DNA of 64,000 nt. Origin: Deinococcales bacterium (GTDB lineage Bacteria; Deinococcota; Deinococci; Deinococcales; JAAFIG01). The stretch covers positions 62,001 to 126,000 of the forward strand of contig JAAFIG010000009.1 of NCBI GenBank assembly GCA_013298595.1, read 5' to 3'. The notes beneath the pieces are model-generated. The model had not been told where the DNA came from. It did not search any database and saw only the letters and a list, made by a program, of their open reading frames with translations. Of the stretch, positions 2,916-56,515 are shown piece by piece; position 1 is the first letter of the stretch, and every line of letters begins with the position of its first letter. Both the position numbers and the translations under genes were made by a program.

Positions 2916-3144
2916 CGCCATCAGTATGGCTTAATAATTTACATACTTGCTTACGCATATCAGGATTCCTTCAAACTTGCTTGCTTCACGCTATTAGATT
3001 CGATTTGATATTTTTCATCCTTGAGACAAAAGCCCTACGTATTTGCAAGACAAGCTACGATTCTTAGGGGACATTCGAGCAGCCTAAAAAAGCGATTGTA
3101 TTAAAAGCAACTCGAGACTCGAGTTTGCCTTTCTCGAGGTTCTT

Positions 3145-12095: not shown

Positions 12096-12105
12096 ATGAA
12101 CCTCC

Positions 12106-12119
12106 AAACCTCGAGGTTT
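12106..12119 (-). promoter_or_regulatory. Palindrome AAACCTCGAGGTTT next to the ribosome site
   Basis: A perfect 14-base palindrome centred on CTCGAG abuts the GGAGG ribosome site of the LptD-like gene. It could be an operator or simply an extended copy of the iterated palindrome. A possible promoter lies upstream, with GATAAT near 12131-12136 on the minus strand. Confidence 0.4.
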
Positions 12120-35605: not shown

Positions 35606-35638
35606 TAACAATCCCCTCAAGACTCGAGGGGATTGTTA
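35606..35638. terminator. Terminator of the giant surface-protein operon
   Basis: TAACAATCCCCTC and GAGGGGATTGTTA form a perfect 13-base-pair stem around a 7-base loop, 16 bases after the stop of the barrel gene. It is symmetric, with A/T-rich flanks, and can act in both directions. Confidence 0.8.
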
Positions 35639-35653
35639 TTGCTTTACTAGAGA

Positions 35654-38600
35654 TTAGCGCCAGCCGAAGGTGCGTTCATCTATTTTCCAGTCTATGCGGA
35701 AGTAGATACCTGGTCGGAAGGCTCCGCCGAGTGCTCCGTTAAATCCGAGAACGTTGTAACCCACGGTAAACAGTAAGCGGTCTACAACTTTCAGGCTGGC
35801 TTCTACACCAAAGCCAATTGCCGAGAAGTTTGTGGCTGGTTGGAAGTAGTAACCAGCTTGTGCTCCTACGCCAATAACATCGGTGATGAAGTAGGTAAAG
35901 CCACCACTGACTAAGCCTGTGAAAACGCTGCTGTCTAAGCCGTAACGGTATTGGAAACCAAGGCGTGGGAAGAAGCGTTCGTTAGCAACGTAGCCAAATT
36001 GGATTTCGCCTTCGATGAAGTCGTCGGTTAAGGAATAGAAACCTGTTTTAGCACGATGATTGGTCAGGATGCTGAGGTCATCACCTCGGTAGGCAGCAGC
36101 AACACTGAAATCAATACCGCTTTGTTCGCCTGCTTTGCTTGGGTCTGTGGCATATTCGACTTTTGGTGAGAGCACAAATTCGTCGCTGAGTTGCGCGATA
36201 AAACCAACGGTGTAAACTTGACGAATACCACTTGGTTGGAAGCCCAGTTGTGCTCGAGCTAAGCCTTTGAAGCCTGCGTCGGTAAATAATAAACCTAGGC
36301 TGGCGCTGCCCGTGGTGCTGCCTGTTGGGTCAAATACAGCTTCGCCGCCGAGTTGAGCGGCAAAGTTTGTACCGAGTGGAATGGTGGTGTCTACGCCTAA
36401 TCTGGCACGTCCAGCATTGCCATCGGTGGTGGTTAAATCATAGGTTGCAGAGACATTGGTGCTACCAAAGGCATCTGGCACAATGGCGCTGTTACCTGCT
36501 ATAGCTCGGATCAATTCGCTGTTACTGAATGAACCTTTAACACCAAAGGCAAGTTGTTGGTTAATGCCATTCCAAGCGTAAGTTAATTTGTCTTTGAGTA
36601 AGACACTAAATCCTGCACCCAGTGGTACCTCGAGGCTGGCTTCGGTTGTGCCGTAAGACAGTGGAATACCCAGCAGTGGTACGCGTTGGAGTAAACCAAG
36701 TTTAATAAAGCCTAGATTTGCCTCGAGTCCGACTGTGCCAAATAATTCGTTGAGGTTGCTGGGGAAGCTGTACAAGTATTGCAAGCCAAGTCCGACACTC
36801 CAACCGTTACCTAAGCCAAGTCTGCCTTCACCACTGACGTTGGTACTGCCGCTGTTGGTCAGGTAGCTTTGGTTATGGTCGAGGTTGGCGTTGAAGCGCA
36901 AACCATTCGGATCGCCTAGGGTTAAACCTGCGGTTAGGCTACGACCTGCGCCGACTGGTGTGTTGGTTTCTGGGTTGACGTAACCCAGTTGTAAGTCTTG
37001 GTAACGGGCACGCAATTGGAAGCTACTACCAACAGTCCAGTTGAGTTGTGCGCCAACACCTAATCCGCTGTTGGCTGGATCTTGGAAGATACCGCTGTAA
37101 CCAAGTTCTGCGCCAAGTTGGAAGCCACCACTGGCGATATTAAAGCCACCTGCCAGTAAGAAGCTCGAGTTAGCACCAAGGGTACCGTTGCGGAATTGCA
37201 CGGCTGTGGCGGTGACATTGAATTCTGGTGAACCAAGGGCGGCTTGGGCACCAAAACGGAAGTCGCGTCCAACGCTGGCTGTACCGTAACTGGCTTCAAT
37301 AAATTGTGGGTTGAGGTTGGCATCAAAGCTGGTAACAGCTTTGGTTAAACGAACAATGCCTGTTTCATAATCAATGCTGTAATCGGTATTGCGTTGCAAG
37401 AGTTGTCTCGAGACCCGCACACTGAGGTTATTTTTGCTGTAGACGCTGACATAAATGCTTTCGGAGTTGCGATTGATGCTGTTATCTGGCAAGAAGTAGA
37501 GGTCTGTGCCATTGGCAACTAAGCGCACACTCTTATTGCTGTTTGGCGCATCTGTGGCAAAGGCATTAAGGCTGAACCCATCGCCGCGAATTGCACCTTG
37601 GAAACCGTTGTACGTACTGCTGTAATTGCTGAGCACACCTCTGAATTGTGGATTGAACTGCCCGAACATGATGAAACTGTTGGCTGTCTCGAGGCGAGCA
37701 TAAATACCTTCGCTGCTGCGGACATCTGCGCCAAGGATGCTCGAGTCGCCAAGTAATGGCAGGTATTCGTATGGGTTGGCTGGTGGTAATAATTCGCCCG
37801 ATAAACGCAATGGGTCTACGGCTCGGCTTGGGTCGTAATCGGCTTGCCAGTTAATACCAATGGTAAAGGTAGAACCTGGGAAAACCGCGCCACGCAAGAA
37901 GAAACGTAAACCACCATCGGCAGTGAAATTACCTGTACCAAAATCGTAGCGAATTTGGGCGCTGGCTAAACCAACTGCCACCACTGGGCGTTCAGTTGCT
38001 GCCACTGGCACATTATTGCCTTGGATTGGGCTGGCTGCATCCACCGAGAAATCATTGGTTTTAAATCGGTTACTCGAGGAAATCACGCCATTGGCATTAA
38101 CCACTCGAGCTTCGACTTGAATATCTTGTAATGGCAATGTGCCTAAGGCGTTGCTGGTCAGGCTTTGTAATCGCAAGTAAGCAACACCATTCTCGAGTTT
38201 GACTTGGAATCCAGGGATGCTTGGTGCAGCGTCAGCATCGGCTGGGTCGGCGTTGGTTTTGATTGTCACGTATTCGTCTGAGGCTGGTAAACCATTTTGG
38301 TCAAAAGCTTCGACTTTGATGGTTGGTTGGTCTGCACCATCGGTGGTTGGGCGTAAAGCTGTTAAGCGCAAACTAGTGGCAGCAGCACCCACTGGGCGTG
38401 CTGTCGTGGCAGCAGTTGTGCCAGCAAATGGAATGGCTCTCGCCAGTAATCCAAGGATGCTTGGGTCGCCTTGGAGAACACGCAACTCGCCTTGTCCCAG
38501 CAATTTACCAAGTGGCGAATTAGGATCAATTCGCACGTCGCCAGTGCGTGGTGTACCTGCACTGCGGCTACTTGGGATTGCCAGCACAGCAGCCACACGG

Positions 38601-41600
38601 TCTTGAGGCATATTCAGTGCACCTGTATGTGCCAAGCGGTAAGTAATGCCATAAACACTGGTGTTTGTCACAGGCACAACCCAGAACAAACGATCTCCTG
38701 CTGTGAACGGATCGGCAATTGCCCGACCAGGAGCCGTGGTTGGTGTATTGGTTGCAAAGCTTGGATTTTCGACTTGGCTACTCGAGCCTGCAATATAACT
38801 CGAGCCTGCTGGAATCCGATCCGAGAGAATTAAGTTGCTGCCAGCAAATGGAATTTCGGCTAAACGAGCCAGCAAGACCACTTGGGTTTCACGGCGTTGA
38901 TCTGGTAATGGTGCAGCTCGAACCTCGAGTGGGGTTGTATCGGTAACATTACAATTTGGTTCGAGGGTGGCACTGATGTTGCTGTTGGTTGGACGCAATG
39001 CCCGAACCGAAACATTATAGGTAAATGCTTGTCCAGCGGCGATGGTGCCATTGCTCGAGACAATGCCATTGGGGGTTAATTCGTTTGGAATACGAATTTG
39101 AATGCTGACTGGCACACTGTATGGGAAGTCTGTACTGGCAACTGCTCGGATATTACCGCTTTGTCCAGCGGTCAGGATTAAGGGTTTAGGACTTAACTCG
39201 AGACGAGTAATCACATTGTAAGCAATATCGGCTGTGGTGGCTTGCGTACCAACCACCACTGGCAAGGCTGAGCTACTCGAGCCTGGCAGTGCTTCTGGTT
39301 GGATGATGTAATTACCCACAGGCAATTCGACACGGGCTGGGGTAATGTAACGGGTGCCATTAATGGTGAAAGCAGTACCGTTTAATGGGCTGCGAACACT
39401 ACAGGCTAAACTCGAGGCTGTGACATTCAAAATACCTGTTGGCACAAGCACTTGTAATTCAGCAGTGGCACTGTTGTTATCCACTCGAGTTTCGGTTTCT
39501 AAACCTGTGGTGGTAGCAGTGTTACGGAATGTTCCAGCGCGGGTAGTGTTGGCACGAACAATAATGGTAGCGCTGTTACCAACTGGTAATGTGCCGATGC
39601 TGGCACTGACAATGCCGTTAGCAAAGCTAACATTGCCTTGGGTGCTGGTAGCACTGACATATTCAATCCCTGCTGGCATTGGGTCGGACATAGTTACTTG
39701 GGTTGCGGTTTGAGGTCCGTTATTGCGAACAACAATGGTGTAAAGCACTGCGTTACCAACATTAGTACGGGTTGGTGCAACCGTTTTTGTGATCTCGAGG
39801 TCGGTACGAATAATAGGCTCGAGCACAACCACTTGGGCACTGGCAACATTGTTATCAGTACGAGTTTCGGCTTCGGCAGCTTTGACAGTGGCAGTGTTGC
39901 GGAATGTGCCTGCACGGGTAGTTGTGCCTTGAACTTTGACAGTCACACTCGAGCCGACTGCCAGACTGCCAACATTGGCAGTGAGGATGCCATTGGCAAA
40001 ACTGACGGAGCCTTTGCTGCTGCTGGCACCAACGTAGTTAATACCTTCTGGCATTGGGTCTGTGAGCACAACTTCGTTGGCATCGGCAGGTCCGTCGTTG
40101 CGAATCACCAAGGTGTACTCGACTGGTTTGTTAACATCGGTTTGGGTTGGGGTAACCGATTTGGTTAAGTTCAAATCAATCAGTGCTGTGACAACCACTG
40201 TGGCAGCCGCACGGTTATTCTCGAGGGTGGTTTCGGTTTGGTCACCACTAACATTGGCAATATTGGTAAATGAACCCACTTGGGTAGCTGTGGCGCGAAC
40301 TTGAATGGTGACGCTACGTCCTTTGCCAAGGTCGCCAATACTGGCAGTAATTACACCATTAGCGTATGTGGCTTCGCCTTGGCTGCTGGTCACACTTTCG
40401 TACTCGAGTCCGTCTGGTAATGGGTCGCTAACAACCACACCAGTGGCATCAGTTGGTCCGTTATTGGTGACAGTAATAATAAATGTGGTGCGTTCACCAA
40501 TGCGTAAACTGGTTGGCACAGCGCGTTTGGTAATGACTAAATCAAGTGGTACGGCTTGTGGTGTGACCACTGGTGGTTCGACCCGTACCTGAGCAGAAGC
40601 TTCAAGTGGTGCACCACTCCAGTCAACTCGAGCTGTGTTGGTAATTGTGCCACTGGCATCAGCAGCCACCGTGGTTGGCACGCGGATGGTGCGGCTTTGA
40701 CCTGCGGCAAGGTTAAAGGTTTGGTCTATGTTAGCACCTGTTAAACCAGCAGGAATGACATCGGTTAAGCGCAGGTTATTGACTGTGGTTGTGCCAGTGT
40801 TGGTCACCACAAGAGTAAAGTTTGCACGATCACCTGGTTTAACCAAATCTTTGTCTACGGTTTTGGTTAAGGTCAGTTGGGCTGGTGCAACTTCGACTCG
40901 CACTTGTGCCGATGCCTCGAGTGGGTCGCCTGCCCATGTCACTTGGGCTGTGTTGACAATGGTACCAGCAAGGTCTCGAGTGACTGTGGTTGGCACGCGA
41001 ACTGTACGGCTTTGACCTGCTTGTAAGGTAAAGGTTTGGTCTATGTTAGCACCCGTTAAACCAGCTGGGATCAGGTCAATCAGGCGAATATCTCGAGCCA
41101 CCACTTTGCTGGTGTTGGTCACCACAATCGTGAATGTTGCACGGTCGCCTGGTTTAACCAAATCTTTGTCCACAGTTTTGGTCAGGGTCAGGGTTGGTTG
41201 GTCTGGTGTTGCCACTCGTACCTGCGCTGAAGCCTCGAGTGGTTCGCCGCTCCAAGTGACTCTGGCAGTATTAACAATTGTGCTTGTGGCATCACTGGTG
41301 ACTGTGGTTGATACGGTCACAGTGCGGCTTTGCCCTGCAGCAAGGTTAAAGGTTTGTCCGATATTGGTGCCAACCAAACCATCTGGGATGATATCGGTTA
41401 AGCGGACATTTTCGGCAGTGCTCCCACCTGTGTTGGTCACTACAATGGTGAAATTAACTTTTTCGTTGGGTTGTACCAAGTCTTTATCCACGGTTTTGGT
41501 TAAAGTCAGTTGTGGTGGGCTTTGTACCCGCACTCGAGCGGTAGCTTCGAGTGGTTCGCCGCTCCAAGTGACTCTGGCTGTATTAACAATTTCGCCGTTG

Positions 41601-43741
41601 GCTTCTGGGGCAACAATGGTTGGAATTTGTACTGTACGGCTTTCGTTGGGTGCTAAGTCAAAGGTCTGATTGAGGTCCTCGCCATTTAAGCCAAGTGGCA
41701 ATAAATCGGTCAGATTGACATCTCGAGCCACACTTGCACCTGTGTTTTTGACAACCACAGTGAAGTTGACTTTCTCGCCTGGTTGTACCAAATCTTTGTC
41801 TACGGTTTTGGTTAAGGTTAGTTGTGGTGGCGGAGCAACCACACGTACATTACTAACCGCAGCCACACCACAGTTTGGCTCGAGGGTAGCGCGAATGGTT
41901 GCAGCCTCTATTGGTTTGCTGGCTTTAACCCGTACATTCAGCACCAATGGGGTACTGGCACTGCTAACACCATTCAAAGTGGTCGCACCAATTGCCTCGA
42001 GTCCATCTGGCAACTGCATATTGATACTGGTTGGGATTGGTGTAACAAATTGGGTACTAGCCGTGGCGGTCAGTGTGGCTGTTTCACCAAGCGCTAAATC
42101 TAAGCTAGCAGGACTTAGGGTTAATGTTTGGGCAACACTGTACTCGAGGGTAACATTAACTGTTTTGCCACGTTCGGCATTGATGGTCACAGCTTGGGTG
42201 GTTGCCCCAGCAAGGTTTGCACCTGTGATAGTGGTCGCACCAGGATTGACCACAACTGTGGCTGGTGTTTTACCTTGCACATTTTGTCCTGCAACACTGA
42301 AATTCGTACCTGTAATTGGTGTGCGTTGACCACAAACCAGTGCTACAGCATTGACTTGTACGTTGGCTTTTGGACAATCTGCCACAAAGCGAATATATCC
42401 ACTGTTACTGGTAATGGTCACTCGAGTGCTGCTGTTGACCGTACCAGTGCCCTCAAGAATACGCGCTGTCACAGGAGTCCAGCAGGTTGGTAAAACAGGT
42501 TGGGCAACGCGGTTTCCTGCTACACCTGTCACTGTGTAACTCGAGCCTGGAATTGGCTTACCTTGGGTATCTACAACATCTACTTTCAGTGGCACAATAG
42601 CTGGGCGGGTGCTTTGGAAACCTGGTAAGAAGGCATAGAGTGGTTTATCTTCGATGCGGACTCGGAAAGCAAAGGAATTACTGAATTGACGGGTGGTTGG
42701 TAACAACCGTGCCAAGATTTTCCAGTTACCAAGTAAGCTCGAGTCTACTTTGAATTTGTTACTTGCCCACTTGGTATCTTCGGAGGCTGTTAATGGGAAA
42801 CGGCGACCATCTGGCGAAACCAGCGTTAAAACAATTTCTTGGTTACCATCAGCATCGTAGTTAGCTAATTCGATACTTTTACCGATATAACTTTTATCCA
42901 CTTGCACAAATGCCACAAGTTGATCTTTGTTAAATTGTCCTCGAGCATTGACCGTAAATTGGCTGGCTTCGATGCGTAAACCACTGGTGGCACGCAAGGC
43001 AAAACTGTTTTTACCATTGCCATCGGAAGCCACTCGGAATGGGTAAATACCGGCTGGTAATGAACCTTGAAAAAACGATTCATAACTGTGTTGTGTACCA
43101 AGGCTGTAACTACGATTAAAAACAATTTGATCTGTCGCATTGGTTAATTTAAAGCCCGTGGTTAAAGTGGCAGTTTTACCGTATAACTCGTCGCCGTAGT
43201 AGGTTACACGGTCTCGAGCGTTAGCGTAATCGTTGCGATTAATTTCTGGACTAAATACTTCGATACTGGTTTCGCGTCCACCAGCTGCTGCTGGCACATT
43301 AATTCGGTAATCATCGGCAGGGATTTTCCAACCTACAGCTTTACCTATCGAAACCAATGGTAACGCAATACTTTGCCCATCACCTTTAGCCGCATTCAGG
43401 GTTGTGCCATCTTGCACTACTGGATTGGTTCTCGAGGTTGGAACTGGCACACCACCTGTTGGTTTAGGGGCAGCGGGTTGAGTACCACTCGAGGCTGGCT
43501 TAGTTGGTGTTGTGGTTGGTTTGGTAGGCGTAGTGGCTGCTGGCTTAGCTGGTGTCGTGGTTGGTTTAGCAGGTTGTGTTGCTGCTGGTTTAGGCGCAGG
43601 TTGACCAATCTGTTTTGCTGCTGGCTTAGTTTGCGCCAGTGCCAACGGCAATGCCGCTGACACCAACACTGAAAGAAGGAAGGCTTTAGTAATCGTTTTT
43701 GCACGTGATGTTGCCGCTTGGCGGCGAGTAAAGAAATTCAT
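35654..43741 (-). CDS. Giant DUF11-repeat protein with C-terminal outer-membrane beta-barrel
   Basis: 2695 residues. Order: signal peptide ending ALPLALAQ (about residue 36); Pro/Thr/Lys linker to about 105 (KPTTTPAKPAATTPTKP); a globular region to about 370; further beta domains with CG and PEGA-like parts; four DUF11 repeats of about 104 residues (640-1060, each starting LTLTKTVDKDLV); three more DUF11 repeats (1060-1434, DPLPDGLEYESV type); more beta domains; and from about 1900 to the end alternating strands typical of an outer-membrane barrel, ending DWKIDERTFGWR. It starts with ATGA overlapping the 4179-residue gene, with GAGG 7 bases upstream. Likely it anchors or exports the partner. 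The reading frame is intact. Confidence 0.8.
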   Translation of the reverse strand: MNFFTRRQAATSRAKTITKAFLLSVLVSAALPLALAQTKPAAKQIGQPAPKPAATQPAKPTTTPAKPAATTPTKPTTTPTKPASSGTQPAAPKPTGGVPVPTSRTNPVVQDGTTLNAAKGDGQSIALPLVSIGKAVGWKIPADDYRINVPAAAGGRETSIEVFSPEINRNDYANARDRVTYYGDELYGKTATLTTGFKLTNATDQIVFNRSYSLGTQHSYESFFQGSLPAGIYPFRVASDGNGKNSFALRATSGLRIEASQFTVNARGQFNKDQLVAFVQVDKSYIGKSIELANYDADGNQEIVLTLVSPDGRRFPLTASEDTKWASNKFKVDSSLLGNWKILARLLPTTRQFSNSFAFRVRIEDKPLYAFLPGFQSTRPAIVPLKVDVVDTQGKPIPGSSYTVTGVAGNRVAQPVLPTCWTPVTARILEGTGTVNSSTRVTITSNSGYIRFVADCPKANVQVNAVALVCGQRTPITGTNFSVAGQNVQGKTPATVVVNPGATTITGANLAGATTQAVTINAERGKTVNVTLEYSVAQTLTLSPASLDLALGETATLTATASTQFVTPIPTSINMQLPDGLEAIGATTLNGVSSASTPLVLNVRVKASKPIEAATIRATLEPNCGVAAVSNVRVVAPPPQLTLTKTVDKDLVQPGEKVNFTVVVKNTGASVARDVNLTDLLPLGLNGEDLNQTFDLAPNESRTVQIPTIVAPEANGEIVNTARVTWSGEPLEATARVRVQSPPQLTLTKTVDKDLVQPNEKVNFTIVVTNTGGSTAENVRLTDIIPDGLVGTNIGQTFNLAAGQSRTVTVSTTVTSDATSTIVNTARVTWSGEPLEASAQVRVATPDQPTLTLTKTVDKDLVKPGDRATFTIVVTNTSKVVARDIRLIDLIPAGLTGANIDQTFTLQAGQSRTVRVPTTVTRDLAGTIVNTAQVTWAGDPLEASAQVRVEVAPAQLTLTKTVDKDLVKPGDRANFTLVVTNTGTTTVNNLRLTDVIPAGLTGANIDQTFNLAAGQSRTIRVPTTVAADASGTITNTARVDWSGAPLEASAQVRVEPPVVTPQAVPLDLVITKRAVPTSLRIGERTTFIITVTNNGPTDATGVVVSDPLPDGLEYESVTSSQGEATYANGVITASIGDLGKGRSVTIQVRATATQVGSFTNIANVSGDQTETTLENNRAAATVVVTALIDLNLTKSVTPTQTDVNKPVEYTLVIRNDGPADANEVVLTDPMPEGINYVGASSSKGSVSFANGILTANVGSLAVGSSVTVKVQGTTTRAGTFRNTATVKAAEAETRTDNNVASAQVVVLEPIIRTDLEITKTVAPTRTNVGNAVLYTIVVRNNGPQTATQVTMSDPMPAGIEYVSATSTQGNVSFANGIVSASIGTLPVGNSATIIVRANTTRAGTFRNTATTTGLETETRVDNNSATAELQVLVPTGILNVTASSLACSVRSPLNGTAFTINGTRYITPARVELPVGNYIIQPEALPGSSSSALPVVVGTQATTADIAYNVITRLELSPKPLILTAGQSGNIRAVASTDFPYSVPVSIQIRIPNELTPNGIVSSNGTIAAGQAFTYNVSVRALRPTNSNISATLEPNCNVTDTTPLEVRAAPLPDQRRETQVVLLARLAEIPFAGSNLILSDRIPAGSSYIAGSSSQVENPSFATNTPTTAPGRAIADPFTAGDRLFWVVPVTNTSVYGITYRLAHTGALNMPQDRVAAVLAIPSSRSAGTPRTGDVRIDPNSPLGKLLGQGELRVLQGDPSILGLLARAIPFAGTTAATTARPVGAAATSLRLTALRPTTDGADQPTIKVEAFDQNGLPASDEYVTIKTNADPADADAAPSIPGFQVKLENGVAYLRLQSLTSNALGTLPLQDIQVEARVVNANGVISSSNRFKTNDFSVDAASPIQGNNVPVAATERPVVAVGLASAQIRYDFGTGNFTADGGLRFFLRGAVFPGSTFTIGINWQADYDPSRAVDPLRLSGELLPPANPYEYLPLLGDSSILGADVRSSEGIYARLETANSFIMFGQFNPQFRGVLSNYSSTYNGFQGAIRGDGFSLNAFATDAPNSNKSVRLVANGTDLYFLPDNSINRNSESIYVSVYSKNNLSVRVSRQLLQRNTDYSIDYETGIVRLTKAVTSFDANLNPQFIEASYGTASVGRDFRFGAQAALGSPEFNVTATAVQFRNGTLGANSSFLLAGGFNIASGGFQLGAELGYSGIFQDPANSGLGVGAQLNWTVGSSFQLRARYQDLQLGYVNPETNTPVGAGRSLTAGLTLGDPNGLRFNANLDHNQSYLTNSGSTNVSGEGRLGLGNGWSVGLGLQYLYSFPSNLNELFGTVGLEANLGFIKLGLLQRVPLLGIPLSYGTTEASLEVPLGAGFSVLLKDKLTYAWNGINQQLAFGVKGSFSNSELIRAIAGNSAIVPDAFGSTNVSATYDLTTTDGNAGRARLGVDTTIPLGTNFAAQLGGEAVFDPTGSTTGSASLGLLFTDAGFKGLARAQLGFQPSGIRQVYTVGFIAQLSDEFVLSPKVEYATDPSKAGEQSGIDFSVAAAYRGDDLSILTNHRAKTGFYSLTDDFIEGEIQFGYVANERFFPRLGFQYRYGLDSSVFTGLVSGGFTYFITDVIGVGAQAGYYFQPATNFSAIGFGVEASLKVVDRLLFTVGYNVLGFNGALGGAFRPGIYFRIDWKIDERTFGWR
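40570..41830 (-). repeat. Four tandem DUF11 repeats, DNA-level similarity
   Basis: Repeats spaced about 310-320 bases encode LTLTKTVDKDLV-(K/Q)-P-(G/N) units. The stretch for TKTVDKDL is almost unchanged in all four copies (near 40850, 41160, 41480 and 41790), so homologous exchange between copies is possible. Confidence 0.8.
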
Positions 43742-46700: not shown

Positions 46701-49700
46701 CAATAAAGACCACGCCATTGACATCACCTCGAGGTTGATACCCATCAAAGCCAGCATCGGCTGGGTTAGCGCCAGCTACAGTGCCACCAGAAACCACATT
46801 GACTGGGCTTGGATCAGTACCAGCGGTTTGCACATGTTGGGCTGGGAAATCTGGGTCGGTGGTAATCACATCTACTGTAGCAGCCCCAGCAGGGATATTT
46901 AGGAAGGTGTAATTACCTGTTGCATTTGTCTGCACAGTACGGGTAACGCCGTTCACATCGGTCAAAACAACATCGATGTTTGGAATACCTAATTCGCCTG
47001 GATCTTGACTGCCGTTACCATTGGTATCCACAAAGACCACGCCAATTACATCGCCTGGAGCAATTGGTGTTGTATCCGTGGCATCGTTATTGCTTGGAGT
47101 TGGGTCTACAACACCAGCTGGCACTGCCACAGTGGCTGTGTTACTGATCGTGCCATTGATTGGGTTGAGCAAAGTACCACGAACTTCAAAAGTCAGGCTC
47201 GAGTTGGCTGCAAGGTCTGCATTGGTTGCCAGATCGCCTGTTTGGAAACCAGTTGTTCCTGCTGGGCAGGTCGCGCCACCTGCAGCAGCGGCTTGCACAC
47301 AACGCCATTGACGACCAGTTGCTGCATAGAAAGCATTTGGTAGTGTATCGGTCACACCTGCGCCGATCACATTGCTTGGACCTGCGTTTGTCACTACGAT
47401 GGTATAGGTGTTAACCGCACCAGCGTTGATGGTGGCTGGGGCTGTAATACCGTCTGTTTTGGTAATTTGTAAATCTGCCACTGGGATTGGTGTGGTGACC
47501 ACCGAGCTTGTGTCGTCTTGACCATTGGTGGTGCCGTTATTGGGTTGGCTATCTGGGTCGAGAACATCCGAAGCTGTGATTTGTGCGGCATTAGTGTACT
47601 CAGCAACGGTTTTGTTTGCTTCGACTTGAGCAACAATATCCACACTCGAGGCAGCACCAGCATTGAGCGCTCCGACATTCCAAGTGATGGTTCCAGCTGC
47701 ATTGGTGGCACTGGCGTTACTACTGGAAACAAAGCTGTAACCAGCAGGGAGCACATCTTGAACCACAATACCTGTGGCTCGAGTTTCGCCACTGTTTTGC
47801 ACCGCTAAGCGGAAGGTCACATTGCTACCAACCAGTGGTTGAATTGGTGGCAATGGATTAATGATTGTTTTGCTTAAACTTAGGTCGGCACGAAGTTCAC
47901 CGAAGTTAATTTCGGTGCGGTTAATACTGACGGTGTCTATCAGTTGAATATTGGTGACTTGACCACCAACACTGGTGCCTGGCGGTACTGTCAATAAAGC
48001 GGGATTACCTGTACTCGAGGCTGTACCAGCACTGTCGCCAACGGTGGTACTGCGGTTAGTGGTGGCTGGTTGTAATTGGGTCACGGTGTAACCCGTGCTG
48101 GTTGGCGAACCAACTGTGCCTGGGGTATCGAGCAAGTTGGTAAAGACATACTCGCCTGTGCCGCTGGTAAATGCCGATTGTTGCGTAACTGCGCCATTGA
48201 TGTCTGTACCTGTCAGGATAACCTGTACACCTGAAAGTGGTAAGTCTGTACCAGCATCAAAAACACCGCTATCGTTGACATCAAGGTAACTACGACCAGC
48301 TAAGGTATTTAAGCCTGAGATGGTTGGGCTACTTTCAGAATCATCGTCGGCAGCAGTATCTATGTTAGTGGTGTTATCACCTGGAGTGCTATCTGGGTCA
48401 AGCATATTTGAAGCTTGGATTTGCACAAAGTTACGGGTGGTGGCTGGTGTGACATTGGCAGAATTAGCATCCACATTGACCGTCACAATAATCAGGTTCG
48501 ATTGATTATTATTTAAGGTACCAACATTCCACTCGAGCTGTGTACCACCAGCAACAGCTGTGATGGTTGGTGTAGCCGCACCGCCACCGATGGTGCTCGA
48601 GACATAGCTGTAGCCACTGGGTAAGAAGTCGCGGACAACGACCCCTGTGGCTTGGGTGGGTCCATTATTGACAGTGATAATTTGGAATTGCACGCCCAGT
48701 TGACCAGCTTGAATGGTTGTGCCACCAACTTGGGCTTTGGCAATGGTTAAGTCGGCGAGGAGTTCACCAAAGTTAAAGTTGATACCGTTTTCGTTGCCTT
48801 GCAAGTCAATTCGGGTGATGGTATTGGTTGCGCTGTTAGCTGTACCGTTAACTGTTGCACCTGTACCAACATTGGTGCTGCCATTGCTGTAATTGGTTGG
48901 TTGGTCTTGGGTTAGTGTGTACGTTGTACCCGTAGCTGGTGGCAATAAATCTGTGATACTCCAAGCACCTGTGCTCGAGTCAGGTGTGGCAGTACGATTG
49001 ACTGGGTTTCCGTTAATATCTGTACCTGTGAGGGTAATGGTTGGTACTGGGGTTGGAGCAGGGTTCGTATTTGGATTACCCAAACCATTTTCACCAATAC
49101 CTCGAGTGGTGTTGTTATTAACATCTAAGTAAACAAACCCAGAAATACTCGGAGCAGCTTTAATCTGCGTTGGTACTGCATTGGCATCATCGTCAGCGGC
49201 TGTATTTGTATTGGTGGTGTTATCACCTGGGGTGCTGTCTGGATCGGCAACAGCCGCATTTTGCACTTGTACAAAGTTATTGGTATTTGCCAAAGTTGCT
49301 GTGGCATTGACTGTCGCACGAACCAATAATGTGGCTGTGCTACTTGCTCCACTAGCCGTCAAATTACCAACAGTCCAATCGAGTTGGTCACCACCTGTTA
49401 CAGCGGTTCGCGTTACACCACTACCAACAGCTGGGGTGCTCGAGATAAAAGTGTACCCACTTGGTAAGAAATCACGGACACTGATACCTGTATTGTTGGA
49501 AAAACCATTATTGGTGACAGTAATCGTGAAGACCACATTCTGACCAATGGTTGGTGTGGCAACATCTAAGGATTTAGTGATACTTAAATCCGATTGCAAT
49601 TCGCCAAAATCGTAATTAACAAGGTTATCACCAAAATTAGCAATCACGCTCGAGGTCGCATCATTGGCTGGTGTGCCATTGGTTGGATTACCTGCTCGAG

Positions 49701-52700
49701 TATTCGTAACAGTGCTCGAGTGCAAAGTTGGTTGAGTCGTTTCGGTAACGGTATACCCCGCTAAGCTACTCTTGGGTAATTGCCCAAAGAAGTAACCACC
49801 AACTGGTACACCACCTGCTGGAACGGTAATGGTTACTGGTACGGCTGGTGCACCATTAATTGAAACATTATTGGTGACTGTGCCACCACCTGCGACAGCA
49901 GCACTGGCAGTTGTTGTTGTAATAACAATATCGCGGTTGAGATCGTCTCTACCAGCTAAGGTGATGGTTTGACCACCCAAGCCAACATCGCCAGCATCGA
50001 AGGTGTTGTCATCTACAACTGTACGGAAAACTCGTCCTGCCAGTGTGGCTGGTGGTAATTCAGCGAAATTATTGGCAATACTGTTTTGATTGCTACCAAG
50101 TACCACAGCACTAATCACATTGTTGGCAGCCGTACCAGTTGGCGTACCACCAATGGTACCAACAGCGGTGTTGGTGACTGTACTAATGAAATTAGCTGGT
50201 TGTGTTTCTGTGATGGTGTACGTTGCTGGACGCAAAGCCCCAAAGTAATAGCCACCAACTGGTAAACCAGCAGGTACAGTTACACTGACTGGTGTAGCAG
50301 CTCCACCATTGATGGAAACATTATTGGTAACTGTGCCACCTGCTGCTACAACCGCACTGGCTGTGGTGGTGGTAATTGTGACAACTTGCCCAAGATCGTT
50401 AGTACCCGTCAATGTGACAGTCACACCTGCAATACCAGGTTCACCAGCTTGTTGAATATTATCGTTGTTACTGGTTTGGAAAACCACACCCGCGATACTT
50501 GAGAGCACAACTTCGGCAAAGTTATTGCCACTCGAGGTTTGACCTGCACCAAGTACCAAGTTGTTAATGATATCTGGAGTCGTACCCAAAGGTGTAGTAG
50601 TTCCTGCTGTTCCGCCTGTTGTGGCAGCACCTGATGTAGTAATACCATCGGCTGTACCTGTTGGTTGGATGCGTTCCTCAACACTGTATGAACCGCGTTT
50701 CAAACCAGCAAAAGCGGTGATGGCTGTACCTGTGCAATCCACGCTCGGGAATACATTGGTTGCACCTGAGGCAAAGCTGTAATTACCGTTCACATCTGTG
50801 CGAGTCGAGAAGGTAACGGCTGTATCAGCATTTAAGCCTGTGCCACCAGCAACACCATCTAAACCAAAGTCTGTGCCAGTTAAAGTAATGCACTGATTTG
50901 CCAATGGTGTATCTGTTCCTACAAGGAAAACACCGTTGCTAAGCCCGTTATCTTGGAAAACCTGACCACTAATTGCACCTGTGCGCTCACCAAAGTCTTG
51001 CAATGTTTGATTGGTGGTGACATTGGTTAAATTAATAACATTGCTTGGATTCTGTGCTGCATTGCCATAAGCACCCGGTTGGGTCTCGGTGATTTGTACA
51101 CTCGAGCCACTTGGAATAATCGCGCTGTAATCACCATTGGTATCGGTGATTAAGTTACGTGTAAATGGTGCTCCTGTTGGTGGTGTGACCAAAATTGTAA
51201 TTGCTACACCTTGAATACCAGGATTAGTTCCACGCACACCACTCGAGGCAACATCGTTATAGACCCGACCACTAACAGTCACTGGAACAATCACAGATAC
51301 TTGGGTTGGGTCTAATCCACCTGTGGTATTTGGTTGATTAATAGCGGCTGTTGGTGGGGTGACACCTGTTGGTGCTGGTCCTGTGATGCTGTTATCTGTT
51401 TTGACACCAGCTATTGGTAAGTTACCTGCTGTTAATGTGGCTTGATTATCTAAAGTCACTGGTGGTGTTGCCGTGACAAGGGTTGGCACGGTCACACGAA
51501 TCACTTCGCCAGGAGCAATCGAAGCAATGGCTGTGGTTGGTAAATTCGTATTGGTAGCAGCAGGGAAAGCAGTTGGCGGTATGGCTCGAGTAATTTGGGC
51601 TTGTCCCACTGTTAACCCAGCTGGGAATGTATCGGCGATTACCACATTGGTTAAAGCCACTGTACCCGTATTTTTGTAAAAAATTGTCCAGAGAATCGTA
51701 TCGTTCTGAGTCACGCTTTGGCTGAGGTCGGCATCATTGGAAATCTCGACAAATTTCCAACCAGCCGCTGTTGGTGTCGCCACCACAGGTGCCAGTGTTA
51801 GATTTTGTCCAGCCAACGCTGTTTGAGGAATGGTTGTACCTGTTGGTAAACCAACACCAATATTGGCTGGCACAGTGGTTGTGGTGTCAGCATTATCGGT
51901 CAGCGTTGTTAAGCTCGAGTACGCAGCAACTGTGGCTGTTGCTTGGTTTGTTAAGTTTGTGCCAACCCCACCAGTTATGGTTACTGGAATAACAATCCGA
52001 ATCACTTCATTGGGCACAACTGTGGCTAATGGACTCGAGAGCACCGAACCAGTACCTGCAAAGCCTGCATTCATACCTGTGGTGGTAGCAGTTGTAAAGG
52101 TTGTGGCAGGTGGTACTAATCTCGAGATGGTTGGTGTACCAGCCACGGTCATGTTACTGCTAAGCGTATCGGTGATGTCCACACCAGTGATATTGGCTGT
52201 ACCTTCGTGCTTGTAGTAAATCACCCAGTTGAGGGTATCGCCAACTGTGGTGGTTTGGCTGTTATCAGCATCAACTGTGCGAACCACATACTTATAACCC
52301 ACCAATGGCGGTGTGATATTGAGGGTAGCGTTGGCTGGAGCTGGGTTTGAGCCACGGTCTGTTTTAAGAGCATCAGCTGGAATGGTGTTTGGGAAACTAC
52401 CCACAGTCGTTGTTGTTGCACCTCTGACATTTAAAACAATGGTACAAGTTCCAGGGGTTGCACCAACAGCCGCAGGAATTGTACCTCCTGTCGCATAAGT
52501 AAATGAGGTGGCTGTGGTGCTAAGCGATGCCGCATTGCAACCAACGCTCGAGGCAACGCCTGTAATTTGTAAACTCGAGCTGACCGAATCGGTGAATGGT
52601 GCGCTAAGTGTGGCAATACCAGCCGTGGCATAATTGCTAAGCGTAATGGTCAGTTGACTGGTTGCATTGGGTTCAATACGGGTTGGGTTGTAACTCTTAG

Positions 52701-55700
52701 CAACAGTCGGTGGAATAAAATTGGTATTAAGCGTTGCTTGTGTCCCATTGCGCGGGTTAATGACTGTTCCACCCGAATCGGCTTCGGCATTGGTGCGTGG
52801 AATTTGGTTAAGGAAAGTTGGCGCAGTACTTGTACCAACTCGGTTTGCGACAACATCCACTTCGATGGTACAAAATCCACCAGAAGCTAAATTGCCGCCT
52901 GATAAACTCCAACTGGTTGCATTAGCAAAAGCAGCTATTGAACCACCGCAGGTATTGGTTGGTGTGGTTGGTACTGGCGCAATTTTCATACCTGTCGGCG
53001 TTCCAGTAGCTGTACCGTCGGATGTGAAATTATCGGTGATATTTAAAGCCGTCAAAGCACTCGGGTAGGCGTTACGCAATACCAACCGCAATCTCGAGAC
53101 TCCTGTACCTGCAACCACTGTGGTTGGTGTGAAGCTTTTTTCCATGCGAAAAGTTGTGAAAATAACCACTGAACTTTGCGTGGAAATACCAGCAGCCCCG
53201 ACAGTATTGGTAGCGCGTTGGTCGGTGGTTACAACATTGATTGGGATTTTATTGACATTAGCACCAGCAATGTAACCTGTTACATCCACTTCGACTACAC
53301 AAGTACTATTGGCGGCAATAGCTCCACCTGTTAAACCAAATTGGCGATTGGCATTGGTGGCTAAACCCTGAGATACACCAACCGCATTTACGACAGGCGT
53401 AGCAGCTGTGTTTGTTACAGTACCATCTGCATTAAAGGTTGGCACATTGGCACTGCAAGTTGTTGTCGCATTGGGCGGGTTAGCAATTTCAACACGCAAT
53501 GGGCATTCAGGCGCACTCGAGCTACCCAGAGTTGTACAAGCACCAAATGGCACACCATCTCGAGTGAAGAAATCGGTAAAGGACACACCGCTTAAAACAT
53601 ACGCATTGTTATTGGTCAGTGTTACGCGTAAACGTGTGGTTTGCCCAGGGTCAATATCAGAAGTCAGGAAAATCTTATCAATACCAATCGCTGCTGGAGA
53701 AACAGTTAGTGTGGCTGCGGCAGGGGTATTATTTGTCACACCTTGTGTTGTTGTGACATTGCTGGTTGGAATCGTATTGGTTTGGTCAACTTGTCCGTTG
53801 GCTACTGGTGATTCAACACTTAACGAAACAGAACATGTAAATGGCGCTGGTGTTGAACCCGCACCAGCCGCTGGCAAACGAATACCACTGATACTAACAA
53901 TATTGCCTGTTGTATCAATATTCTGCCCTGCGCCAATTGTAGGCACAGCAGAAGTGGCTGTCCGACAAGTTGTACTGACTTGTGCAGGACTCGAGACAAC
54001 CAAATTACCTGGGGCAACAAAAGCTGCCAGATCATCGGTTAAACCTGTGATGTCTATGGCTCGAGTGGGGTCATTGTTGGTAAGATCAATGCTTAAACGG
54101 GTTCGTCCGCCAGGTCCAACTTGGCTTGGTGCGAAACTCTTAGCAATTTGAATACCATCACGCACTGTTAATGTTGCACCATCCCCAATTAAATTAGCTG
54201 TACCTGAACTCGAGCGTACTTGGTAAGAAGCAATAGTATTTGGGTAAACGCCAGCAGTACTTGAACGTGCTCTGAAGGTGATAACACAATCTGTTCCTGC
54301 GTTTAATGTTGCGCCACTCAATTGTAATGCAGCATTGCCGCTACCTGCTGCATTGACCAAATTAGTTGTGGCAGCACCGCAACCCGTATTGGTTAATTGA
54401 TCGTAAATAACACCGTCTGGTAAATCATCATCTGGTGTGAAAGAAACACCTGTTTCGGTTGGCGCACCTGCTGGTAAACTCAGTGTAATGCGGAAAAAAC
54501 CCGAACGGGTTGGCACTAAATTCTGAGCGATATCACGTAGAATAGCGGCATTGCTTGGGTCAAATACTGGCGCAGCAGCTAAATTGCCAGTAGCATCGGC
54601 GCTGCTCGAGACTCGCTTATCGAGATTGATAATTGTGCCTGTCACACCTGTTGGTACAACAAAAACACTAGCACTTTGGTCTTGGAAAACAGCTTGGTTT
54701 CCACCAGCAGTAATGTTAGCACCCAGTAATGTGTTGGTTTTTGTACCCGTAGTAATACCTGTAGCACCACGCACTGGAACCAGAATGGTACAACTGGCAG
54801 AAGCTGCTAGTGTCAAACCTGTCACTTGGATACCACGTTGTCCAGCTGCCACAGCCGCAAAAGCAGGAGCAGCATTGGGAATATTTGTTGCACCTTGGCT
54901 TGTGCCACCACATGAAGGCGGCGTAACTGTTACTGCTGCGCCTGTTAGCTCGAGATCAAGTGGTGTTCCCGTGGGTGCTCCACCAACTGTGAAGTAATCG
55001 GTAACATTGACACTTGATACTGGGGTGGTCAAACGATTTGTCACTGTTAAACGCATGACTGTTGCAATGGTTTGTGAGTTGCTGGTCGAAACACGGGTTA
55101 ATGTGGTTGGCGCATCAAACGACTTAGCTGAATCAAGCGATTGATAGGTTAATGATCTCGAGACTCCCGAAGCATTTGTCACACCTTCACGGGTGGTAAC
55201 AGCATTTGCAGGGATGGTGTTGGTAAACACACCCGAGCTAGTACCAACAACTGTGAAACTCACATCACAAAATGAATTGGGTGCAATCCGTGGCACTGTG
55301 ATTTGCACATTATTTGGTGTACCAACTGGTGTGAAAACAGTATCAGGTGTTGCTGCACCAACCGCTAAACACCCACTCGAGAAAGTACGAGTGGTGTTGG
55401 CAAATATCAGTGGTGTTGGCAATTGATCTGAAATCACAACATTATTGATGTTTTGGGCAGTGTCGTTATTGCGAACGCGTACAGTTAAGGCAACATTGGT
55501 GCTGGTGTTTTCGGTTAAGTTATTGCCCACTGCTGCACTACCAGAACCAACTGTACCAAAGCCTTTATTGATACTCGGAGCATCCACTGTTGGAATGACC
55601 ACATTTTCTTGAATATTCTCGTTTTGGTAACGTCCGCCGCCTGGCTTTGGTAAATCCAGCACAGGTTGTGGATCAGTTGCCACAGGCGGACTCGAGCGAC

Positions 55701-56277
55701 CAGGTAAGATATTTGGATTGCTGCCCAGTATCGCACTACGCACTTCGACTTCGACGAAACAAGTACCACGGTCGCCATTACTGGCTGGTATTGTTAGATT
55801 TTGCAATGTCACAGATGTTCCAGCAGCATTGGTAGAAACAACACTGGCATTGGTAATAAATGTAGACCCAACGGCTGGAGCAATGGCACCACAATTAGAA
55901 ACACCCGTTGCTCCTGGTGTCGGATTGGCAATCACCCGAAAACGAGGCGGATTGGTGGTGGTGACTAAACCCGTGTTTACCCTTGGACCACCTGCAAAAC
56001 CAGTATCTGTAAATTGATCGGTAATCGGAAATCCTAGTGCTACACTACCAGGAGCAACGGGAACAATGACTGCTGCTGGTGTATCATTAAATAACTGAAA
56101 CCGCAAAATAAATGGTTCATTCGGATTTGGTGTTGGATTGATACTTCCCGCCAGATCAAAAAATTTTTTATTGATCTGAACCGAAACCGTATCTATTTGT
56201 GCATTCGCACTCGAGAGCAGCCCCACTGCTCCTGCCAAAATAATTGCGCCTAAACGCGTTGCCCATAATCGTCTCAT
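43738..56277 (-). CDS. Giant secreted surface protein of DUF7933/DUF11 and SdrD_B-like repeats
   Basis: 4179 residues. A signal peptide ends near SSANA-Q at residue 26. Residues 30-1320 hold repeated DUF7933-like modules (IDKIFLTSDIDPGQTTRLRV pattern with TDFFT or TDNFT). At about 1326 and 1509 are two modules with (D/N)AD-(N/L)SQ-type strands. Then SdrD_B-like and DUF11 modules alternate (about 1669-3060), followed by seven SdrD_B-like repeats (3076-3790) with Ca-binding-like DTNGNGSQDPGE, one DUF11 domain, one more SdrD_B-like domain near 3960 and a C-terminal beta domain. No LPXTG, SLH or barrel is seen. The ribosome site is AAGGGG, 6 bases before ATG 56277. Its stop overlaps the barrel gene. 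Confidence 0.82.
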   Translation of the reverse strand: MRRLWATRLGAIILAGAVGLLSSANAQIDTVSVQINKKFFDLAGSINPTPNPNEPFILRFQLFNDTPAAVIVPVAPGSVALGFPITDQFTDTGFAGGPRVNTGLVTTTNPPRFRVIANPTPGATGVSNCGAIAPAVGSTFITNASVVSTNAAGTSVTLQNLTIPASNGDRGTCFVEVEVRSAILGSNPNILPGRSSPPVATDPQPVLDLPKPGGGRYQNENIQENVVIPTVDAPSINKGFGTVGSGSAAVGNNLTENTSTNVALTVRVRNNDTAQNINNVVISDQLPTPLIFANTTRTFSSGCLAVGAATPDTVFTPVGTPNNVQITVPRIAPNSFCDVSFTVVGTSSGVFTNTIPANAVTTREGVTNASGVSRSLTYQSLDSAKSFDAPTTLTRVSTSNSQTIATVMRLTVTNRLTTPVSSVNVTDYFTVGGAPTGTPLDLELTGAAVTVTPPSCGGTSQGATNIPNAAPAFAAVAAGQRGIQVTGLTLAASASCTILVPVRGATGITTGTKTNTLLGANITAGGNQAVFQDQSASVFVVPTGVTGTIINLDKRVSSSADATGNLAAAPVFDPSNAAILRDIAQNLVPTRSGFFRITLSLPAGAPTETGVSFTPDDDLPDGVIYDQLTNTGCGAATTNLVNAAGSGNAALQLSGATLNAGTDCVITFRARSSTAGVYPNTIASYQVRSSSGTANLIGDGATLTVRDGIQIAKSFAPSQVGPGGRTRLSIDLTNNDPTRAIDITGLTDDLAAFVAPGNLVVSSPAQVSTTCRTATSAVPTIGAGQNIDTTGNIVSISGIRLPAAGAGSTPAPFTCSVSLSVESPVANGQVDQTNTIPTSNVTTTQGVTNNTPAAATLTVSPAAIGIDKIFLTSDIDPGQTTRLRVTLTNNNAYVLSGVSFTDFFTRDGVPFGACTTLGSSSAPECPLRVEIANPPNATTTCSANVPTFNADGTVTNTAATPVVNAVGVSQGLATNANRQFGLTGGAIAANSTCVVEVDVTGYIAGANVNKIPINVVTTDQRATNTVGAAGISTQSSVVIFTTFRMEKSFTPTTVVAGTGVSRLRLVLRNAYPSALTALNITDNFTSDGTATGTPTGMKIAPVPTTPTNTCGGSIAAFANATSWSLSGGNLASGGFCTIEVDVVANRVGTSTAPTFLNQIPRTNAEADSGGTVINPRNGTQATLNTNFIPPTVAKSYNPTRIEPNATSQLTITLSNYATAGIATLSAPFTDSVSSSLQITGVASSVGCNAASLSTTATSFTYATGGTIPAAVGATPGTCTIVLNVRGATTTTVGSFPNTIPADALKTDRGSNPAPANATLNITPPLVGYKYVVRTVDADNSQTTTVGDTLNWVIYYKHEGTANITGVDITDTLSSNMTVAGTPTISRLVPPATTFTTATTTGMNAGFAGTGSVLSSPLATVVPNEVIRIVIPVTITGGVGTNLTNQATATVAAYSSLTTLTDNADTTTTVPANIGVGLPTGTTIPQTALAGQNLTLAPVVATPTAAGWKFVEISNDADLSQSVTQNDTILWTIFYKNTGTVALTNVVIADTFPAGLTVGQAQITRAIPPTAFPAATNTNLPTTAIASIAPGEVIRVTVPTLVTATPPVTLDNQATLTAGNLPIAGVKTDNSITGPAPTGVTPPTAAINQPNTTGGLDPTQVSVIVPVTVSGRVYNDVASSGVRGTNPGIQGVAITILVTPPTGAPFTRNLITDTNGDYSAIIPSGSSVQITETQPGAYGNAAQNPSNVINLTNVTTNQTLQDFGERTGAISGQVFQDNGLSNGVFLVGTDTPLANQCITLTGTDFGLDGVAGGTGLNADTAVTFSTRTDVNGNYSFASGATNVFPSVDCTGTAITAFAGLKRGSYSVEERIQPTGTADGITTSGAATTGGTAGTTTPLGTTPDIINNLVLGAGQTSSGNNFAEVVLSSIAGVVFQTSNNDNIQQAGEPGIAGVTVTLTGTNDLGQVVTITTTTASAVVAAGGTVTNNVSINGGAATPVSVTVPAGLPVGGYYFGALRPATYTITETQPANFISTVTNTAVGTIGGTPTGTAANNVISAVVLGSNQNSIANNFAELPPATLAGRVFRTVVDDNTFDAGDVGLGGQTITLAGRDDLNRDIVITTTTASAAVAGGGTVTNNVSINGAPAVPVTITVPAGGVPVGGYFFGQLPKSSLAGYTVTETTQPTLHSSTVTNTRAGNPTNGTPANDATSSVIANFGDNLVNYDFGELQSDLSITKSLDVATPTIGQNVVFTITVTNNGFSNNTGISVRDFLPSGYTFISSTPAVGSGVTRTAVTGGDQLDWTVGNLTASGASSTATLLVRATVNATATLANTNNFVQVQNAAVADPDSTPGDNTTNTNTAADDDANAVPTQIKAAPSISGFVYLDVNNNTTRGIGENGLGNPNTNPAPTPVPTITLTGTDINGNPVNRTATPDSSTGAWSITDLLPPATGTTYTLTQDQPTNYSNGSTNVGTGATVNGTANSATNTITRIDLQGNENGINFNFGELLADLTIAKAQVGGTTIQAGQLGVQFQIITVNNGPTQATGVVVRDFLPSGYSYVSSTIGGGAATPTITAVAGGTQLEWNVGTLNNNQSNLIIVTVNVDANSANVTPATTRNFVQIQASNMLDPDSTPGDNTTNIDTAADDDSESSPTISGLNTLAGRSYLDVNDSGVFDAGTDLPLSGVQVILTGTDINGAVTQQSAFTSGTGEYVFTNLLDTPGTVGSPTSTGYTVTQLQPATTNRSTTVGDSAGTASSTGNPALLTVPPGTSVGGQVTNIQLIDTVSINRTEINFGELRADLSLSKTIINPLPPIQPLVGSNVTFRLAVQNSGETRATGIVVQDVLPAGYSFVSSSNASATNAAGTITWNVGALNAGAASSVDIVAQVEANKTVAEYTNAAQITASDVLDPDSQPNNGTTNGQDDTSSVVTTPIPVADLQITKTDGITAPATINAGAVNTYTIVVTNAGPSNVIGAGVTDTLPNAFYAATGRQWRCVQAAAAGGATCPAGTTGFQTGDLATNADLAANSSLTFEVRGTLLNPINGTISNTATVAVPAGVVDPTPSNNDATDTTPIAPGDVIGVVFVDTNGNGSQDPGELGIPNIDVVLTDVNGVTRTVQTNATGNYTFLNIPAGAATVDVITTDPDFPAQHVQTAGTDPSPVNVVSGGTVAGANPADAGFDGYQPRGDVNGVVFIDTNGNGSQDPGEVGIPNITVTLTDPFGGTKTTTTGANGTYSFTGVPAGISTVDVDTTDPDFPANHVQTAGTDPSPVTVVFGQNNNAGFDGYQPRGDVVGIIFYDTNGNGALDSGEPRLGGVDVKITDAFGGIRTVTTNASGEYTALSVPASATPATVDVVESTLPAGVSQTAGTDPSPVVVQVGKTVANANPNDAGIDGYRRQGTVTGVVFTDTNGDGIQNPGEPGIPNVDVQITDAGGKVTTVTTGSDGKYTAPGVLEGTAIVNVVDATLPPNLTQTAGLDSSPVNVVANTTNDAGFDGYRPQGSVFGRVFLDPNGNKIQDLGEPGINNVTVQITDSAGKVVTTTTNASGDWSVLGVLSGNATVKVIDSTLPVGVVLTTTGSDPNVVNVLPNIANDAGKDGYQQRGTLTGHVWRDDNNDGIQQPTEPNFPNVLVTITDLGGTPVQVRTDANGNYTADVAAGPVNVVYTTPDNHRLTTANSTQTVNVPPAGNAKAADVGYQPLFGGLTGRVFYDTNNNGVQDPGEPGIAGVRVEITDAKGNLKVVTTDANGDYATGDRDLAFGSATVKVIDPTGHVLTTNNNPQVVQVPAGAIGRVPNVGYVRPSIRLEKNVVVGDQVIPRDQQPTVLVGGTLAYQLSVINNGVVVVSNVVITDTLPIGLQYQAGSSTAAGAVIADPTLSTNAEGKQVLVWTLPGSIAANASRSIRFKTIVTPAANNGNLLNVASATATAANGTTTVGVQSNASIAAVKVSLGVFNPRTTIVGRVYFDNNNNDSFERDTDEAVQGARVYLSDGRWAVTDTLGRYSIPDVEPGRHAVRLDPFTAPFTCKYVPDDAPCTRFVVAPETGGITIEDFLLNPPTGAAVKSRSTLVQRGPVTLTKAIAQGGAGYAVTITITLEKAVQNLVITDPLPTGTVERGVPQISNKQPFTFDGTTLRLTGVVPAGTYTITYPLFTPLPPDLVLTDPDISYEEIFTLIQLPVPNSDEVIR
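45060..47100 (-). repeat. Seven SdrD_B-like tandem repeats
   Basis: Units of about 97-110 residues, each opening G-x-V-x-G-x-x-F-x-D-x-N-G-N and D/N-P-G-E and closing around AGFDGY. Calcium-like loops lie near 47010, 46690, 46385, 46050, 45745, 45440 and 45150. In Staphylococcus SdrD, such B repeats bind calcium and stiffen the stalk. Confidence 0.85.
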
Positions 56278-56515
56278 ACCGTTCCCCTTCCAATGCGGAA
56301 TTGCCGACCCGTTTCATTCATATTTTCAACTCTCCCAGAGTTATACTTCTTAGTTTAGCCAATTGCTAAGCCGTCCAAATGCAATCTATCCCTCAATAGA
56401 ACGTGCAAAAACACCTTATTTGACGCATCGGTTCTCATCTTGACGAAATGTGGAAAATTCAAGAGTACAGAATAAACCCTTTCAAATTCCTTACAACCAT
56501 TTTTCAGTCTATTTT
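56278..56515. promoter_or_regulatory. Upstream region of the giant operon
   Basis: 238 bases with no gene and no CTCGAG. On the minus strand a weak promoter is possible: TTAGCA (56364-56369), an 18-base spacer and TATAAC (56340-56345), leaving a leader of about 60 bases. A TAAACT box lies nearby at 56353-56358. A small inverted pair TTAGC/GCTAA surrounds 56356-56369. Confidence 0.35.

Follow-up and report, generated by a model that had tools for sequence, protein, structure and literature searches.

A two-gene locus of Deinococcota and beyond: a giant chain of Ig-like modules paired with a predicted outer-membrane barrel protein, as a probable surface fibre and its anchor

The window analysed here is a 64,000-nucleotide stretch of a Deinococcales contig, in which two very long genes, termed P1 and P2, lie end to end on the reverse strand. 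The preliminary description of this DNA had reported two exported giants of 4179 and 2695 residues joined by an ATGA overlap, and its coordinates, lengths and strand all proved exact. The features of the locus, from the start of P1 onwards, are as follows.

43738-56277, minus strand: P1, a 4179-aa exported chain of Ig-like modules (DUF7933, DUF11, SdrD_B) with the conserved module P1C at its end
56197-56277, minus strand: P1 signal peptide, residues 1-27, ending SSANA before Q, read from the translation
44878-47043, minus strand: tandem SdrD_B modules of P1, residues ~3079-3800
43741-44430, minus strand: P1C, the conserved last 230 aa of P1, proposed as a docking base
43738-43741, minus strand: 4-nt ATGA overlap of the P1 stop and the P2 start
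35654-43741, minus strand: P2, 2695 aa, a predicted outer-membrane barrel protein and partner of P1
43634-43741, minus strand: P2 signal peptide, residues 1-36, read from the translation
43412-43633, minus strand: Pro/Thr/Lys-rich linker of P2, residues ~37-110
42467-43369, minus strand: P2N, residues ~125-425 of P2, conserved across Deinococcota and without a Pfam family
39302-41824, minus strand: DUF11 block of P2, residues ~640-1480
35657-37906, minus strand: predicted C-terminal barrel region of P2, last 750 aa, with an estimated 30-36 strands
37337-37426, minus strand: SprA-like DYxIDYxTG segment, residues 2106-2135 of P2 (TIGR04189, E 0.03)
35606-35638, minus strand: hairpin 3' of the P2 stop, 15-bp stem without a U-tract

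The hairpin is a strong one (region MFE -28.1 kcal/mol, z -5.3), and to that extent the strong terminator originally placed after P2 is confirmed; the label is only partly right, because the U-tract is absent and a terminator scan 3' of P2 found nothing. Rfam gave no RNA match over 35000-57500. By reading, the upstream neighbour of the pair is acetyltransferase-like and the downstream one DUF4388/peroxiredoxin-like; both look unrelated, so that the locus in the window is taken to consist of two genes. A 15-codon leader frame (MNETGRQFRIGRGTV; 56274-56321, minus strand) overlaps the P1 start by ATGA and is possibly coupled to P1 translation. Elsewhere in the window, three 123-bp tandem repeats (27111-27485) lie within a gene for a 520-aa protein (26827-28389, minus strand), resemble TPR units and are adjoined by an ATPase-like gene, and a further gene (10260-12107, minus strand) encodes a 615-aa exported protein that by eye resembles an LptD-like outer-membrane protein.

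P1 opens with what reads by eye as a Sec-type signal peptide (MRRLWATRLGAIILAGAVGLLSSANA, then Q). Within the chain Pfam recognises nine stretches of SdrD_B, six of DUF11 and five of DUF7933, together with a weak Chlam_OMP6 match; SdrD_B-like modules start at residues 3079, 3188, 3291, 3400, 3501, 3603 and 3701, i.e. every ~100 aa, and the tandem SdrD_B modules matched the structures of SdrD and UafA. The 24 cysteines fall, on one reading, into 12 closely spaced pairs, a pattern familiar from exported modules with disulfide bonds. As first described, P1 carries no anchor of its own, but it does end in a conserved C-terminal module, P1C, which consists of an SdrD_B-like half and a DUF11-like tail finishing near TDPxIxW (alignment A3). 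AlphaFold2 modelling of P1C alone gave a pLDDT of 46 overall, rising to 55-76 in the stretch ~121-200 of its 230 residues. P1C is constant whilst the length of P1 ranges from ~675 aa (L049) to an open frame of 6346 aa in the genome of origin (C4), and in most Deinococcota the end of P1 lies 0-4 aa from that of P1C.

P2 likewise begins, by eye, with a Sec-type signal peptide (ending SVLVSAALPLALA, then Q). The DUF11 repeats and Pro/Thr linker attributed to P2 at the outset both exist, the former matched by Pfam as seven DUF11 and seven DUF7507 stretches that overlap each other; the linker, however, is N-terminal, directly after the signal peptide, rather than in the stretch that separates the DUF11 repeats from the barrel. 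It is limited to the close family; Thermus and Meiothermus lack it. The Eleftheria P2 has an OmpA peptidoglycan-binding domain close to its N-terminus, which places this end of the protein in the periplasm. Since DUF11 modules also occur inside P2, the N-terminal part of which is apparently periplasmic, such modules alone are no proof of surface exposure.

The C-terminal region of P2 is likely, judged from its sequence, to be an outer-membrane barrel. On a crude count, an alignment of the last 750 aa of 22 members (A1) holds 36 strand-like amphipathic segments, where shuffling of its columns leaves 7.3 +/- 2.4, and segments of alternating hydropathy were less dense in Ig-like and N-domain controls than in the barrel region, which contains no Cys, 12.8% Gly and 12.7% Phe/Tyr/Trp. 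No curated family in Pfam or NCBIfam claims the region in P2; amongst its relatives, three of 22 match OMP_b-brl (best E 7e-6) and three of 22 match Porin_4 weakly (best E 4e-5), and the SprA-like segment is matched in four of 22 members, with a best E of 0.003 that is far under the model's cut-off. A profile search of the PDB with the barrel returned only a designed barrel, at E 0.22, and an AlphaFold2 model built from two sequences only had a pLDDT of 32, too low to inform on the fold.

Across 111 Deinococcota genomes, the barrel is present in 60 and full-length P1C in 56, all 56 of them amongst the 60; no full P1C was found outside the barrel genomes in this set, and in the remaining four P1C is split (G046), partial (G099) or weak (G030, G076). 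Forty-six P1/P2 junctions were inspected, of which two have a broken P2 frame and cannot be judged. A 4-nt overlap of the P1 stop with the P2 start is seen in 36 of the 46, four alphaproteobacterial junctions included; the others show a 1-nt overlap (4/46), abut at 0-1 nt (3/46) or are separated by 12 nt (1/46). Distances between P1C sequences correlate with those between barrels (r 0.94, 43 pairs; permutation maximum 0.25), a correlation partly owed to the common descent of linked genes. The pair thus stays linked in relatives, and the possibility raised at the outset that the two genes might prove unlinked there does not hold. Thermus thermophilus HB8 and Deinococcus radiodurans both carry the locus. 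In Thermus and Meiothermus-like members it takes a five-gene form, with an extra small exported gene, a DUF11 gene before P1 and another after P2; the full five-gene locus of HB8, in which P1 is TTH_RS11750 and P2 is TTH_RS10920, lies on pTT27 (L059) near type I-E CRISPR genes, and only a truncated P1 and P2 are left at the locus on pTT27 of HB27 (L060).

The pair recurs on plasmids, the hosts of which are alpha-, beta- and gammaproteobacteria and two cyanobacteria. P2 was found in 23 plasmid records and P1C in 23, with 22 common to both and one unpaired on each side, and in 22/22 shared records P1C lies upstream of P2 on the same strand and no more than 1.35 kb away. Proteobacterial P2 proteins match the A1 profile at E 5e-26 to 5e-37, and the proteobacterial P1 has a tail of ~100 aa beyond P1C. 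Bipolaricaulota encode proteins of 1130-1340 aa (L007, L008, L009) that show weak similarity to the barrel profile (E 1e-10 to 9e-12), P1C being unmatched on the same contig, and a scan of viral contigs for relatives of the pair found none. The arrangement of P1 and P2 cannot be put down to chance, because it recurs across a phylum and beyond.

The genome of origin itself holds three further barrel loci (C4, C23 and C19). At C4 (G000; L039, L040) three more DUF11-type frames with near-identical C-termini precede the P1-type open frame, which is 6346 aa long and reaches 6354 aa in a sister genome (G001 C323); a candidate frameshift in the C4 P2 was rejected, the interruption being a run of 10 Ns. 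Single chains with a P1C-like module directly before the barrel occur at C19 (L042), in L046 and in Acinetobacter (L094). A third type of protein joins P2N (E 2e-79 to 5e-87) to the P1C tail and has no barrel (genome of origin C1, L125, L126, L128); these exported proteins span 660-850 aa across L124, L125, L126 and L128, the one at C1 being encoded at L124 3485-5467. One genome (G012) has a protein of the third type and no detected barrel. What the preliminary description suggested could be the undescribed system of this window is hence not confined to it, but is a family spread over Deinococcota, proteobacteria and cyanobacteria, with the three paralogous sites in the genome of origin besides.

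These patterns support P1 and P2 as a functional pair, and the strict linkage together with the recurrence in both Deinococcota and proteobacteria suggests that the pair probably builds and holds a surface fibre. On balance we favour a model in which P1 is such a fibre, docked by its C-terminus to P2 as outer-membrane anchor and perhaps exporter, the two being obligate partners. P1 would be exported by Sec and fold into a long string of Ig-like beads, by estimate roughly 40 modules of ~3.7 nm each, or about 150 nm if extended, with P1C as the base that docks to P2. P2 would set its large C-terminal beta-barrel in the outer membrane and reach with its N-terminal part into the periplasm. With P1C docked to an outer-membrane P2, the fibre would stand out from the cell, its constant C-terminus gripped by P2 and its variable N-terminus at the far tip, and the 4-nt overlap may couple translation and so keep the partners together. 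Probably P2 would also be the exit route, its barrel dedicated to one client. A constant C-terminal base, variable length, a universal barrel partner and overlap coupling speak for a fibre that P2 holds and perhaps also exports. That P2 folds as a barrel, that P1C docks to it, that P1 leaves through it and is exposed at the surface, and that the pair serves in adhesion or cell contact is what we infer. Going further, P2 could be the prototype of a new class of secretion and anchoring barrel, exporting a single giant Ig-bead fibre recognised by its conserved C-terminal module and occurring, as two genes or as one chain, across Deinococcota, proteobacteria and cyanobacteria, a reading we put forward tentatively and with more doubt than confidence.

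It is rather unlikely, in our judgement, that P2 only holds the fibre and that P1 crosses the outer membrane by some other route. P2 has no known translocation domain in Pfam, and the OmpA domain of one P2 suggests anchoring, both of which would suit such a division of labour; the stand-alone two-gene loci of the window and of the proteobacterial plasmids nevertheless suggest self-sufficiency, and the single-chain versions resemble autotransporters with a C-terminal barrel. The same OmpA domain, with the Pro-rich linker after the P2 signal peptide, would also fit an arrangement in which both proteins stay inside the envelope, reach from the wall to the outer membrane as a long tether or spacer and form no surface fibre. 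DUF11 modules are known in envelope-internal proteins too, chlamydial OmcB being one, and the weak Chlam_OMP6 match in P1 is in keeping with this. The longest P1 forms, if extended, would however exceed a periplasm, and giants with SdrD_B and DUF11 modules are known surface structures, so that we regard an internal tether as improbable. We give scarcely any credence to P2 as a TonB-dependent nutrient receptor with P1 as its substrate-binding surface partner: in its favour, the copies in Nitratireductor, Pelagibacterium and Phyllobacterium are automatically annotated as such receptors and ExbB/ExbD/TonB genes adjoin the Phyllobacterium pair, but Pfam finds no plug or receptor barrel in the P2 of the window or of Nitratireductor (the latter matching no Pfam family at all), amongst the 22 Deinococcota barrels a TonB-barrel model matches a single one, weakly (E 0.009), and no TonB genes lie beside the other pairs inspected.

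No description of the P1/P2 pair was found in searchable papers, and databases annotate the family as 'hypothetical', 'DUF11 domain-containing' or 'TonB-dependent receptor'. Two D. radiodurans proteins that may be part of that species' copy of the locus have been recorded, DR_B0037 in the supernatant of an envelope mutant (PMC5382914) and DR_B0038 as heat-repressed (PMC6888292). A barrel family without a curated model, together with its co-conserved fibre, is widespread in well-studied bacteria (HB8, Deinococcus radiodurans), and HB27 is a natural partial deletion of the locus. Were the favoured model true, it would add one more fibre-display system to the outer-membrane routes and account for the way in which Gram-negative envelopes retain giant DUF11/SdrD_B proteins.

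Amongst known systems, the pair recalls two-partner secretion (type Vb, TpsA/TpsB, FHA/FhaC) in that a large exported fibrous protein is encoded beside an outer-membrane barrel partner (layout in PMC5422565). The preliminary description had proposed a layout of this kind built from different domains, and this is borne out: the genes are adjacent and co-conserved, and have none of the domains of that system. Neither P1 nor P2 is matched by a Pfam model for TPS, POTRA, ShlB, ushers or autotransporters, and P1 has no TPS/Haemagg_act match. A ShlB search of the genome of origin, which gave nothing, is uninformative, since the control genomes were equally empty. Because its defining domains were tested for and are absent, we do not file the pair under two-partner secretion. 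P1 moreover consists of Ig-like beads, whereas the secreted partner there is a beta-helix; the constant module is C-terminal in P1 and N-terminal there; and the P2 barrel region, at ~750 aa, far exceeds the 16-strand barrel of TpsB in size.

SprA/Sov of the type IX secretion system is a 36-strand barrel with a lateral opening, and shares with P2 a very large barrel (predicted in P2), a client with a C-terminal module and a short DYxIDYxxG segment. SprA clients, too, are bound by a C-terminal domain (PMC10994853). TIGR04189 nonetheless reaches scores of 11.4 and 15 bits where its cut-off is 200, the PDB sequence search with the barrel did not match SprA, and NCBIfam models of the type IX C-terminal domain did not match P1; we treat the parallel as a lead and make no claim of homology. 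The single chains L042, L046 and L094, with fibre modules first and barrel last, are laid out like type Va autotransporters, but neither P1 nor P2 has a PF03797 barrel, the barrel is far larger and here there are two genes. With SdrD-type MSCRAMMs P1 shares its tandem SdrD_B modules, set here in a Gram-negative envelope with a barrel partner and with no sortase-type anchoring seen. As a giant exported chain of DUF11 type, P1 finally resembles the giant DUF11 surface filaments GhlA of Litorilinea, the hooks of which are bundles of chains at the surface (PMC13319060), and GhpA of Aureispira, as cited in that paper. It differs from these grappling-hook filaments in mixing DUF11, DUF7933 and SdrD_B modules and in having a barrel partner and a signal peptide, which GhlA is reported to lack (PMC13319060); that giant DUF11 proteins of this kind form hooks nevertheless makes a surface filament plausible for P1.
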